Part shown: in pieces, positions 29,043-32,134 of the stretch
How positions within the stretch are numbered: position 1 is the first letter of the stretch
How the letters are laid out: every line of letters starts with the position of its first letter
From: Lachnospiraceae bacterium
GTDB lineage: Bacteria; Bacillota; Clostridia; Lachnospirales; Lachnospiraceae
Length of the DNA stretch: 61,079 bases
Reading direction: 5' to 3'
Assembly: GCA_017617545.1 (NCBI GenBank)
Contig: JAFZVZ010000012.1
Coordinates: forward strand, 1 to 61,079
The notes under the pieces: generated by a model
Database searches by the model: none
Seen by the model: only the letters and a program-made list of their open reading frames with translations
Told to the model about the DNA's origin: nothing
Program-made: the position numbers and the translations under genes

Positions 29043-30026
29043 ATGGATACAAACAGAAGACCGGACACCATGGAACGAATCACCACTCCCGAGCTTGCAA
29101 AAGCCTTTATTGACGAGCAGATTGCAGCTGTCAAGGCGCAGGTCGGCGACAAGAAAGTCCTGCTTGCTCTCTCGGGCGGCGTTGACAGCTCGGTTGTCGC
29201 AGCTCTCCTCATCAAGGCGATCGGCAAGAACCTTGTGTGCGTACATGTCAACCACGGACTGCTTCGCAAGGGTGAGCCTGAGCAGGTAATCGAAGTGTTC
29301 CGCAACCAGATGGATGCCAACCTGATCTATGTTGACGCAGTTGACCGCTTCCTCGACAAGCTTGCAGGCGTCGCTGAACCCGAGCGCAAGCGTAAGATCA
29401 TCGGCGAGGAGTTCATCCGTGTGTTCGAGGAGGAAGCCCGCAAGCTTGAGGGCGTTGATTTCCTCGCACAGGGCACGATCTACCCCGACATTCTCGAGAG
29501 TGGCCCGGTCAAGGCGCACCACAATGTAGGCGGTCTTCCTGAGGATATTCATTTTGAAGGTCTCGTGGAGCCCATCAAGCTTCTCTTCAAGGACGAGGTT
29601 CGCGTCGTCGGCAAGGAGCTCGGGCTTCCGGACAATATGGTTTATCGCCAGCCGTTCCCCGGCCCCGGCCTCGGTGTTCGCTGCACGGGCGCGATCACGA
29701 GAGAGCGTCTTGAGCTCGTCCGCGAGTCCGACGCCATCCTGCGCGATGAGTTCGACAAAGCAGGTCTCGCCGGCAAGGTTTGGCAGTATTTTACGATCGT
29801 TCCGGATCTCAAGAGCGTCGGCGTGAAGGACAACCTCCGCTCCGTCGAGAACTTTGTTGTCATCCGTGCGGTCAACACCCGCGACGCGATGAGCGCCACC
29901 ATCGAGGAGATTCCGTACTCCGTACTGAACACCATTGTGAAGCGCATCATCACCGAGGTTCCGGGCATCAACCGTGTCCTCTATGATCTGACACCCAAGC
30001 CTACGGGCACAATTGAGTGGGAATAA
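29043..30026 (+). CDS. guaA: GMP synthase ATP-pyrophosphatase/dimerisation subunit, no amidotransferase domain
   Basis: 327 aa: PP-loop LLALSGGVDSSVVAALL, HVNHGLLRKGE, and the GuaA dimerisation domain with QPFPGPGLGVRCTG and the C-terminal PKPTGTIEWE. It adenylates XMP and replaces the group with ammonia to give GMP. Ordinary bacterial GuaA (about 510-520 aa) has an N-terminal class I glutaminase; here the ORF begins directly at the synthetase part, with GGAGG eight bases before the ATG and a promoter upstream, so this is not a truncation artefact. A separate glutaminase, as in archaeal GuaAa, should exist elsewhere, or free ammonia is used. Confidence 0.9.
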   Translation: MDTNRRPDTMERITTPELAKAFIDEQIAAVKAQVGDKKVLLALSGGVDSSVVAALLIKAIGKNLVCVHVNHGLLRKGEPEQVIEVFRNQMDANLIYVDAVDRFLDKLAGVAEPERKRKIIGEEFIRVFEEEARKLEGVDFLAQGTIYPDILESGPVKAHHNVGGLPEDIHFEGLVEPIKLLFKDEVRVVGKELGLPDNMVYRQPFPGPGLGVRCTGAITRERLELVRESDAILRDEFDKAGLAGKVWQYFTIVPDLKSVGVKDNLRSVENFVVIRAVNTRDAMSATIEEIPYSVLNTIVKRIITEVPGINRVLYDLTPKPTGTIEWE

Positions 30027-30037
30027 GACAAAAACAG

Positions 30038-30072
30038 TGGCGAGCCTTGAAGATTCAAGGCCCGCCATTTTT
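30038..30072 (+). terminator. Terminator of the GMP synthetase gene
   Basis: TGGCG-A-GCCTTGAA / TTCAAGGC-C-CGCCA, a 13-bp stem with one mismatch and a GA loop, followed by TTTTT. Confidence 0.9.
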
Positions 30073-30133
30073 CACTTCGCCGAATTGCGCCCGAAATCTC
30101 AGATGGTCCGGCAAAGAAGCCGGAGAGAATTTG

Positions 30134-30148
30134 TTAAGCAACGCTTAA
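30134..30148. promoter_or_regulatory. Palindrome upstream of the XRE regulator gene
   Basis: TTAAGC-AAC-GCTTAA inverted repeat about 50 bp upstream of a TATAGT -10-like sequence (about 30193). A candidate operator for the adjacent XRE protein. Confidence 0.4.
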
Positions 30149-30248
30149 GTTCTCTGAAAAAATGCTCTCTTTTCATTTTCATTCAAACGTCTTATAGTAA
30201 GGATAGTCGCTGTAACTCAAAACGAGAAAAGGGGGGAGAAGGTAAATC

Positions 30249-31397
30249 ATGAAAACCATAAAAAACCTGGGTAGCACGATTGCAAAGCTTCGTAAGGTAG
30301 CAGGCATTACGCAGGAACGTCTGGCGGACCAGCTTGGCGTTTCCGTGTCCGCCGTCTCACAATGGGAGAACGGAAGGACCATGCCCGATCTCTGCACAAT
30401 ACCCATTCTCTGCCACATACTGAAGGTCTCTTCCGATGAATTGCTTGAAATCAATCGCGAGCAGGACGATGCGGAAATTAAGAGGATAGATGTCGAAGCA
30501 AAGCATTTGATGCAACGGGCGCACTATGCCGAGGCAGAGGAATTGCTCACGAATGCACTTGTGCGATTCCCGGGAAGTTACGACCTTATGACAACAATGA
30601 TGACTCTCTGTCACTGCGTGGCTCCGTCCAATCCTCAAATGGCCGATCAAGAGTCCGGGAAAGAGCATTCGGCAAATGCATCCGTCAAAGAGAAGTATCT
30701 TCACAAGTGCATTGATCTTGCACAAACAATTATAAACGAGTGCAGGGATTCATCAAGTGTTGACTACGCAAGACTGATGCTCTGTTACTCCTATTCTCTG
30801 TTAGGGGAAGCGGAAAAAGCCATTGCAATCGCACAGGATATGCCCGGCATGACGGTCTGCAGGGAAGCATTGTTATCCACTTTCGGTAGGGACCGCGACA
30901 GATATAAAAGCATACAAAGTGAAATGGTTTTGCACGTAAAGTCGCTCTGTACAATGCTGGATTGCAATGTAAGATTTGAGGACGGCAGTTTCGCATATAC
31001 CCGGGCGGAGCGGGCGGCTTTGGCACAAAAGGTCATCGATTTGTTGCACGTTCTGTTTGAGGACGGTGATTTCGGTCTCTTCCATGATACTCTGATCCTT
31101 GCGCATTATCACATTGCCCACTTCACAGCATGCGATGAAAAAGATTGTGAGAAGACACTGACGCACTTAGAGGAGGCAGCCAATCACGGGGAGGCGTTTC
31201 TGAAAAACGAAAAGAAAAGAACACACACGTCCCTGTTCCTGCGAGGGCAGGAATACGGAGGCATTCGCATAAAAGGCCAAAACAAACCTACAGCATTCCT
31301 TCTTGAAATCATGAAAGACGATTGTTTTGATTTTGTGCGAAAAGATTCGAGATTTACAGACCTTGAAAAGCGTCTCCGAAAGACGACGGGGATGTAA
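30249..31397 (+). CDS. XRE-family regulator with TPR-like C-terminal domain
   Basis: 382 aa: N-terminal helix-turn-helix (GSTIAKLRKVAGITQERLADQLGVSVSAVSQWENGRTMPD), followed by about 310 residues of helical repeats with alternating Leu/Ala pattern, resembling peptide-sensing RRNPP-type or TPR regulators. GGGGGGAGAAGG precedes the ATG. The small RNA at 31446-31656 begins 50 bp downstream. A second protein of similar design is at 33987-35030. Confidence 0.85.
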   Translation: MKTIKNLGSTIAKLRKVAGITQERLADQLGVSVSAVSQWENGRTMPDLCTIPILCHILKVSSDELLEINREQDDAEIKRIDVEAKHLMQRAHYAEAEELLTNALVRFPGSYDLMTTMMTLCHCVAPSNPQMADQESGKEHSANASVKEKYLHKCIDLAQTIINECRDSSSVDYARLMLCYSYSLLGEAEKAIAIAQDMPGMTVCREALLSTFGRDRDRYKSIQSEMVLHVKSLCTMLDCNVRFEDGSFAYTRAERAALAQKVIDLLHVLFEDGDFGLFHDTLILAHYHIAHFTACDEKDCEKTLTHLEEAANHGEAFLKNEKKRTHTSLFLRGQEYGGIRIKGQNKPTAFLLEIMKDDCFDFVRKDSRFTDLEKRLRKTTGM

Positions 31398-31410
31398 AGT
31401 ATTGCATCCC

Positions 31411-31439
31411 TTGACTCTGTGCTTCCGACTTGCTATAAT
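31411..31439 (+). promoter_or_regulatory. Promoter of the tandem-module small RNA
   Basis: TTGACT (31411-31416), 17-bp spacer, TATAAT (31434-31439). Predicted start at about 31446, directly at the closing stem of the RNA. Confidence 0.85.
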
Positions 31440-31445
31440 ACTAGC

Positions 31446-31656
31446 AGATGTAGTAGGTGTGGCCGCCGGAGCCACGACTTGCTCCCTTTTCAGGGTAGGA
31501 GTCGAAGAAGGCCGTTAAGTTCGCAAACCGCTTATGCGGTGGGTAAGGCCGCTGGAGCCTCGGGTTGCCCCCTTTTCAGGGCTGGGACTCGGAAGAAAGC
31601 CGTTGAAGTCGCAAACTACATCAAGAGCTGCCCCTTTGGGAGGCAGCTCTTTTTTG
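31446..31656 (+). ncRNA. Structured small RNA with two tandem ~70-nt modules
   Basis: About 210 nt between a consensus promoter and a strong terminator, with no ORF preceded by a ribosome binding site. Outer stem GATGTAGT (31447-31454) pairs with ACTACATC (31615-31622). Inside are two similar modules (about 31455-31529 and 31540-31614) separated by the hairpin ACCGC-TTAT-GCGGT. Each module has a TGGC/GCCA or AGGC/GCCT hairpin with loop CGC[CT]GGA. A second hairpin follows with CCCTTTTCAGGG at its tip, then GAAGAA-x-GCCGTT and finally CGCAAA. Stem bases differ between modules in compensating pairs, which supports the fold. No downstream gene is in the same direction, so it acts in trans. Not recognised as 6S, SRP, tmRNA or RNase P. 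Confidence 0.75.
31623..31656 (+). terminator. Terminator of the small RNA
   Basis: AAGAGCTGCC / GGCAGCTCTT, 10-bp stem with 9-nt loop, continuing into TTTTTT. Confidence 0.9.
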
Positions 31657-31708
31657 TTTCCGTGTAGTGTATTCGTCCAGTTTCCTTTATGGCCAGTATC
31701 GGTCAATC

Positions 31709-32134
31709 TCACTGTTGCGACCGGATGAACTGCATCTGCGGGCTGTTCGGGTCGAGCTGCATCAACTCAATCTTGTTACCGTCCGGGTCATGCGTCCAGC
31801 ACTGCCAGTTGAAATCAGCTCCCTGCTTGGGCGCGTCATCCTGCGGCGCACCGGTTTCCGTAATTTTCCGCCAGATATCCTGTATGTCATCAACGGCGAT
31901 GCACATGTGGAAGAACCCGATGGTCTCGTCCCCGCCGGGGATCTCTCTCGTCCCGCCGTAGAACAGCTCGAGGAACTGACTTCCTGCGCCGTACAGGTAC
32001 ACGATCCACGGCTCCCCGTTCTCCGGTCTCGGGATATCAAACGCGCGTCGGAACCCCAGTGTATCCTCATAAAAACGAATTGATCTTTCCATGTCCCTGA
32101 CACGGAAAGCAACATGACCGATGCCTTGGATCAT
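31709..32134 (-). CDS. VOC (glyoxalase-like) family protein
   Basis: 141 aa of the vicinal-oxygen-chelate fold: IGHVAFRVRDMERSIRFYEDTLGFRR at the start with the metal-ligand His, FFHMCIAVDDI in the middle, and WTHDPDGNKIELMQ with Glu near the end, as in lactoylglutathione-lyase-like enzymes. The start at 32134 follows AAAGGAGAAGGCAT; a longer upstream reading frame overlaps the neighbouring gene and lacks a site. Possible methylglyoxal or ring-cleavage role; substrate not determinable. Last of three minus-strand genes. Confidence 0.85.
   Translation of the reverse strand: MIQGIGHVAFRVRDMERSIRFYEDTLGFRRAFDIPRPENGEPWIVYLYGAGSQFLELFYGGTREIPGGDETIGFFHMCIAVDDIQDIWRKITETGAPQDDAPKQGADFNWQCWTHDPDGNKIELMQLDPNSPQMQFIRSQQ

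Follow-up and report, generated by a model that had tools for sequence, protein, structure and literature searches.

A candidate stand-alone RNA gene with two reciprocally paired modules in a genus of Lachnospiraceae

Does a compact segment of Lachnospiraceae DNA encode an RNA with two-fold symmetry built into a single chain, and what might such an RNA do? The question is raised by a locus in the 61,079-nucleotide stretch analysed here (hereafter, the window), in which an initial annotation recognized two similar tandem modules with mutually complementary flanks and took the whole for a trans-acting structured RNA or ribonucleoprotein component. Much of that reading stood, namely, a structured RNA that has a promoter and a terminator to itself, is retained in relatives and, as we interpret it, acts in trans; what it missed were a probable pseudoknot, symmetric helix extensions, the inclusion of the RNA in a common block with an XRE gene and a patchy distribution typical of accessory genes.

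Gene layout and module duplication

A promoter of the form TTGACT-17-TATAAT and an intrinsic terminator were found to delimit, as originally annotated, an RNA that measures 178 nt without the terminator (Table 1). The promoter attains a score of 11/12 in a motif scan of the region 31300-31800, where 0.2 such sites are expected per shuffle, and the position of its -10 box suggests that transcription would start at about 31446. The arms of the terminator are complementary at 10 of 10 positions and separated by 9 nt; the hairpin scan reported it on the minus strand only, probably because the loop limit of the scan is 8 nt. Two further genomes, G009 and G018, carry the terminator stem GCTGTC/GACAGC versus GCTGCC/GGCAGC, with both sides changed. 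The homologs of the RNA body in G011, G019 and G009 differ from that in the window at 0, 12 and 14 sites, respectively, and in the alignment, the G009 copy retains TTGACT-17-TATACT although the spacer has diverged and the surroundings are different. The whole RNA of 211 nt folds with -87.9 kcal/mol (z = -2.6; 3 of 200 shuffles fold equally well). That a real structured RNA gene exists at 31411-31656 is, in our assessment, highly probable.

Table 1. Coordinates of the RNA gene, its proposed structural elements and the adjacent upstream features in the window
Feature	Position	Strand	Details
XRE-family HTH protein gene, 382 aa	30249..31397	+	HTH_3, E 2.6e-13
Palindrome GGGATGTAA-4-TTGCATCCC	31389..31410	+	9-nt arms, 89%; directly 5' of -35 box, overlaps XRE stop codon
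Promoter	31411..31439	+	-35 TTGACT, 17-nt spacer, -10 TATAAT, TG ahead of -10
RNA body without terminator	31446..31623	+	178 nt; indel-free homologs in G011, G019, G009
P1 5' strand, 5' flank of module 1, GATGTAGT	31447..31454	+	pairs with 31615-31622
Module 1	31455..31526	+	GGU, P2 hairpin 31460-31474, P3 hairpin 31475-31504, conserved tail 31505-31526
Proposed pseudoknot 1	31465..31467	+	loop strand GCY, partner RGC 31510-31512; six-module comparison
P1' hairpin ACCGC-TTAT-GCGGT	31527..31540	+	module 1 3' flank (31527-31531) to module 2 5' flank (31536-31540)
Module 2	31541..31614	+	GGU, P2 hairpin 31546-31560, P3 hairpin 31561-31591, conserved tail 31592-31614
Proposed pseudoknot 2	31551..31553	+	loop strand GCU, partner AGC 31598-31600; same in all three modules 2
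P1 3' strand, 3' flank of module 2, ACTACATC	31615..31622	+	pairs with 31447-31454
Intrinsic terminator	31623..31656	+	arms 31623-31632/31642-31651, then T's

The two modules, each about 75 nt long, are related by duplication: they share a block of 48 nt with 79% identity (31448-31495 vs 31534-31581) and another of 25 nt with 84% identity (31504-31528 vs 31592-31616), repeated at a spacing of 86-88 nt. The inter-module complementarity reported at the outset was recovered in full, with GATGTAGT being the exact complement of ACTACATC and ACCGC that of GCGGT, and the within-module stems named there are likewise present. The reciprocal flank pairing of two homologous modules thus characterizes a symmetric (pseudo-dimeric) structured RNA at the level of secondary structure.

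Comparison with known sequences yielded no alternative identity for the locus. Rfam 15 produced no match at gathering score in the 61,079-base window, nothing better than E 0.21 for the RNA stretch itself and no match at E<=2 for two relatives. The best of the six matches to the stretch at E<=10 was RcsR1 (18.2 bits vs a gathering score of 60), spanning part of module 2 and the terminator. A small protein-coding frame was also rejected, given that the 25 variable sites of the RNA are distributed over the three codon phases as 9, 9 and 7, with no phase bias.

Proposed fold and pair conservation

In the proposed topology, the RNA would form one hairpin, with P1 below and P1' above an internal loop that is very large and symmetric, the same folded module of GGU, P2, P3 and conserved tail making up either side. 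As drawn, the flanks of one module find their partners in the flanks of the other, neither module closing on its own, so that the molecule would amount to a covalently fused pseudo-dimer.

The model comprises 47 pairs, distributed over P1, P1', P2 and P3 of either module, inner parts included, and the two pseudoknots, and was confronted with the gapless 178-nt alignment of the window/G011, G019 and G009 sequences, which contains 25 variable sites in all; pair counts refer to the three distinct sequences, excluding the G011 copy, identical to that in the window, and the decayed one of G018. Standard pairs occupy 97.9% of the 141 cells, compared with 30-47% when the partners are slid by 1-3 columns. 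Nine pairs differ between the sequences and six of these stay paired, two of them through compensatory double changes: the P1' pair at RNA positions 82/95 is A-U in the window and G-C in G019, and the module 2 pair at positions 101/115 turns from A-U into U-A in G009. P3 of module 2 additionally displays G-U/G-C exchanges in G019 and one broken end pair in G009. The number of both-sided changes is matched by 62 of 500 within-column shuffles and is not significant, such counts being often reached because three sequences carry little information. All eight pairs of P1, the principal helix between the modules, are invariant in the three distinct sequences, so that P1 is supported by complementarity, with covariation speaking neither for nor against it.

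Substitutions nonetheless tend to spare the fold. Relative to the window, five of the six changed pairs in G019 but only one of the three in G009 are still paired; random placement of the substitutions would break 3.3 pairs on average in G019, versus 1 observed (P 0.077), and 5.7 in G009, versus 2 observed (P 0.022). When the six modules are compared together, 99 of 102 cells are paired, a figure equalled in 2 of 5000 shuffles, and four pairs show both-sided changes, which is equalled in 307 of 5000.

RNAalifold, applied to the three sequences with no structure supplied, recovered P1, P1', both P2 and both P3, with slightly different helix ends, and predicted additional symmetric pairs (12-167/13-166 and 78-99/79-98). 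The latter represent inward extensions of P1 (G12-C167, U13-G166) and P1' (G98-C79, U99-G78), and reading the sequence shows a G.A mismatch ahead of each. The two mismatches that remain at symmetric positions beside these helices are replaced by standard pairs in G009 (10/169, A.A to G-U; 81/96, A.G to A-U). By contrast, when each of the three sequences is folded singly, other folds are energetically favoured: the energy of the drawn fold versus the minimum free energy, pseudoknots not counted, is -53.2 vs -66.9 kcal/mol for the window, -50.4 vs -67.2 for G019 and -45.6 vs -63.3 for G009. Module 2 of the window is poorly defined in single-sequence folding, with probabilities of 0.14 for P2 and 0.26 for P3.

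Within each module, GCY in the P2 loop (CGCYGGA) probably pairs with RGC in the tail (AARGC) to form a pseudoknot. None of its pairs is broken over six modules and one of the three varies: module 1 has C-G in the window and in G009 and U-G in G019, and every module 2 has U-A; we grade the pseudoknot as probable and no higher because a single pair varies. It competes with a tail-to-tail pairing of positions 65-67 with 154-156 predicted by RNAalifold. Both the pseudoknot and the symmetric helix extensions are additions to the fold model that the initial annotation did not contain.

The loops and the tail rank among the least variable segments of the six modules. In a stand-alone gene, this pattern could also signify a base-pairing sRNA with duplicated seeds, provided either by the C-rich and UUUUCA loops or by the conserved tail; however, the constant parts are long and it is the entire fold that tends to persist, which makes this interpretation improbable.

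Distribution and genomic surroundings

A BLAST search over 99 genomes retrieved clear homologs from four genomes only, namely, G000 (the genome of the window), G009, G011 and G019; G018 gave a partial one (E 2.3e-13). The matches listed for other genomes at E<=1 were short, the best of them having E 0.03; those above E 0.03 extend over 54 nt at most and were treated as chance. Possible second copies at G000:C13 and G020:C83 (L002, L034) were dismissed as weak BLAST matches in long open frames with repetitive sequence (552 and 446 codons, respectively). With the covariance model R1, the RNA was found intact in 4 of the 22 genus genomes (three distinct sequences) and decayed in 1 of 22, the remnant in G018 consisting of a module-2 part and the terminator; 17 of the 22 are without a clear copy, absences that are not certain because several genomes are incomplete drafts. 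The module model R2 returned the same five genomes, with a best value of E 0.10 beyond them. At E<=1, R1 matched 9 of the 22 genomes, of which five were taken as real; the other four (G013, E 0.007; G006, 0.022; G002, 0.14; G004, 0.2) were rejected as homologs, the best match of each lying inside a long open frame, and second-place matches in G011 (E 0.03) and G000 (E 0.98) were taken as chance. The pairs of module-1 P3 and of P1' are misplaced in R1, in which the G009 row lacks the first bases and overran the other end, and those of R2 are off by one column, so that the results of both rest mainly on sequence; R3 was built on the checked structure.

Beyond the genus, nothing convincing emerged in overlapping draws of genomes from the larger family and order. 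Among 397 family genomes, R1 gave at best E 0.045 (G035) and 0.07 (G271) and R3 matched G165, G389, G025 and G327 at E 0.001-0.06 per genome, taken as chance; among 392 order genomes, R3 retrieved G025 again. Eleven weak matches (L046-L050, L059, L060, L184-L187) were discarded as they lie by at least 80% inside open frames of 187 to 708 codons, and the match in G165 falls within a 320-aa frame read as PrmC-like. In a pattern scan covering 84,980 species, each represented by one genome, 55 stretches were returned, three of which contain both modules and correspond by length to the G019, G011 and G009 contigs, the other 52 yielding no R1 match better than E 0.22. Viral pattern scans gave 0 and 3 stretches, the latter without an R1 match at E<=10; no copy was present in the phage collection, and plasmids contributed one 37-nt match at the terminator end only. 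As far as searched, the RNA is confined to one Lachnospiraceae genus and patchy inside it. The conservation in relatives which the earlier reading presupposed was, accordingly, narrowly upheld, by intact copies in the genus and by no convincing match elsewhere in the genomes searched. This distribution, together with two kinds of surroundings, identifies the RNA as an accessory gene.

In three of the four intact copies (window, G011 and G019), the RNA adjoins the gene for the XRE-family protein, the C-terminal part of which is possibly TPR-like (TPR_19, E 0.0029, under its cut-off). The -35 box begins 13 nt past the XRE stop codon, and the palindrome in between is a possible operator, judging from its position. 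A block of 1.55 kb that includes the XRE gene and the RNA (window 30112-31660) is 97.2% identical to its counterpart in G019, versus 86% for the neighbouring guaA, and was apparently exchanged as a unit. Given that the three linked copies reside in one shared block, the XRE link may be a single event, the constant unit being promoter-RNA-terminator.

The G009 copy is set in different DNA. No XRE-like frame (E<=1e-5) was detected in the first 15 kb of its contig, which ends about 240 nt beyond the RNA, and the palindrome, as read from the sequence, is missing. The RNA is oriented divergently from a gene for a 490-aa protein with seven DUF4379 domains, and its downstream flank is partly common to G018. 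The flank past the RNA (L057 1-204) starts like a small gene that is a 156-codon open frame in G001:C35; this likeness ends at position 115, and it is part of the next ~90 bases (from about 150) that is common to G018. Homologs of the XRE protein with 50-53% identity occur in G003, G005, G020 and G009 and elsewhere in G000, where other DNA follows, and the 20 XRE homolog loci contain no convincing R1 match (best E 0.084).

These data bear on the possibility that the RNA is an effector or decoy of the adjacent XRE regulator in a two-gene cassette, in which an XRE dimer would control the promoter through the palindrome or be titrated by the symmetric RNA. The shared block and the palindrome situated between the two genes are what such a cassette would lead one to expect, but the G009 copy without regulator or palindrome, the XRE homologs that occur apart from the RNA and the possible single origin of the linkage argue against it, and we deem this scenario improbable. 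In the arbitrium arrangement, aimR...aimX, a gene for an HTH protein is likewise followed by a non-coding RNA gene, and the XRE protein is similar in size to AimR. Here, however, there is no room for a peptide gene between the two, one of the four intact copies has no adjacent regulator and the TPR match is weak.

A second type of XRE gene, 50-51% identical to that in the window, is present at G005:C18, G020:C125, G000:C20 and G009:C19 (L140, L141, L153 and L142). These genes have a common 3' end in four genomes, after which the DNA soon differs, and they seem to be exchanged as cassettes.

The region 3' of guaA (window 29600-30260) varies between species of the genus and looks like an integration hot spot. 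The last 15 guaA bases of G011 recur 1.8 kb further on with one mismatch (L055 8346-8360 and 10120-10134), closing a 37-residue frame without a Pfam match that presumably resembles the tail of a Vsr-type endonuclease. Tandem units of 63 bp, containing CCGATGT/CATCGGAAA, lie directly 3' of guaA in G019 (7.7 copies, L166 952-1434), where they are partly read as a repetitive 239-aa frame, and in G009 (2.9 copies, L164 2037-2220). Between guaA and the XRE block of G019 there is also a 167-aa frame (L056 11266-11766) that matches the C-terminal end of the PADLOC candidate PDC-S68 (E 5e-27) and is possibly a fragment or a small nuclease. Finally, palindromes of the form TTGTTACAC...GTGTAACAA, found near the G018:C2 copy (L058) and at G008:C13 16971-17014, possibly represent a dispersed repeat.

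Between the window and G019, 12 of 178 sites are changed in the RNA, compared with 16 of 1149 in the XRE gene (Fisher P 1e-4). Either the exchange of the gene part is more recent than that of the RNA part or the RNA evolves fast under structural constraint; faster divergence than that of the XRE gene is the opposite of strong conservation. The RNA could, then, be a hitchhiking relic, once functional and now drifting in a recombining island 3' of guaA, as might be read from this divergence, the broken pairs (two in G009, one in G019), the decayed G018 copy, the species-to-species variation next to guaA and the second guaA end in G011. Yet fewer pairs are broken than random substitution would predict, the promoter has retained its hexamers and the 178 nt are free of indels across three sequences, so this explanation, too, appears improbable.

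Mode of action and relation to known RNAs

A cis-acting riboswitch or leader was ruled out by the arrangement of the downstream genes. The next gene lies on the opposite strand in the window and is convergent in G019, an AraC-like gene follows about 350 nt on, behind a fragment, in G011, and a short convergent frame precedes the contig end in G009; accordingly, the annotated absence of a following gene in the same direction holds inasmuch as the window, G011 and G019 have none in common. The lack of a consistent same-direction downstream gene points to action in trans rather than in cis.

We tentatively favour the interpretation of the locus as a stand-alone structured non-coding RNA gene, the product of which would act in trans through two identical sites for a dimeric partner or for a pair of ligands. 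The RNA would serve as a scaffold or decoy, offering two-fold-related sites to a homodimeric protein or to two copies of one small ligand, which presupposes that the symmetry of the drawn fold extends to three dimensions. The nearest candidate partner is the XRE protein, a candidacy that the G009 copy does not support. A more far-reaching version, which we consider rather unlikely, would have the module duplication and the reciprocal flank helices create, within a single molecule, a pseudo-C2 dimer by which a homodimeric protein is clamped, making this a new class of small RNA, borne by an accessory gene exchanged between rumen and gut Lachnospiraceae and possibly linked to defence or regulation.

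Several known systems share individual traits with this RNA. The tandem glycine riboswitch also consists of two similar modules in contact, but each of its aptamers has a P1 of its own and a downstream gene is controlled, whereas the present RNA has swapped flanks and no target in cis. CsrB and RsmZ are stand-alone RNAs that sponge CsrA through GGA in hairpin loops, and the GGA in both P2 loops prompted us to consider this function; it was rejected, since a CsrA gene (PF02599) was detected in 0 of the 22 genus genomes in a search that was positive in 3 of 14 named genomes as a control.

Type III RNA antitoxins, such as ToxI and CptI, contain several repeats that assemble with the toxin (PMC8860590, PMC4627078). 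An RNA of this kind, with tandem pseudoknotted modules cut apart to bind an endoribonuclease toxin, would agree with the tandem and probably pseudoknotted modules, the separate promoter and terminator and the patchy distribution described here. Nevertheless, no toxin gene of the ToxN/CptN/TenpN kind was seen in Pfam/PADLOC scans of chosen neighbours (XRE, glyoxalase, DUF4379, AraC-like and others), and none is next on the same strand in the window, G011 and G019, the G009 contig being cut downstream; moreover, the modules, at about 75 nt, are larger and tied together by inter-module helices rather than separable head-to-tail repeats. We regard this alternative as very improbable.

A further parallel is provided by bacterial orphan structured RNAs that form symmetric assemblies, namely, the OLE dimer, reconstructed as a two-fold RNA-only dimer, and the ROOL and GOLLD cages (PMC12286853). 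Those RNAs are large and their symmetry arises between molecules, whereas here both halves are contained in one chain of 178 nt. The RNA is not described in the open PMC literature searched; sequence supplements fall outside that search, so that a prior listing may exist in one of them, such as that with the 16,482 models of PMC8040213. Symmetric natural RNAs being already known from OLE, ROOL and GOLLD, we rate the locus as adding to them a new orphan structured RNA family, unusual in its fused-dimer design. If this interpretation is correct, the RNA would offer a compact and experimentally easy case for the evolution of a quaternary-like architecture from RNA duplicates, and its double site would point to a dimeric partner that could be identified by pull-down.
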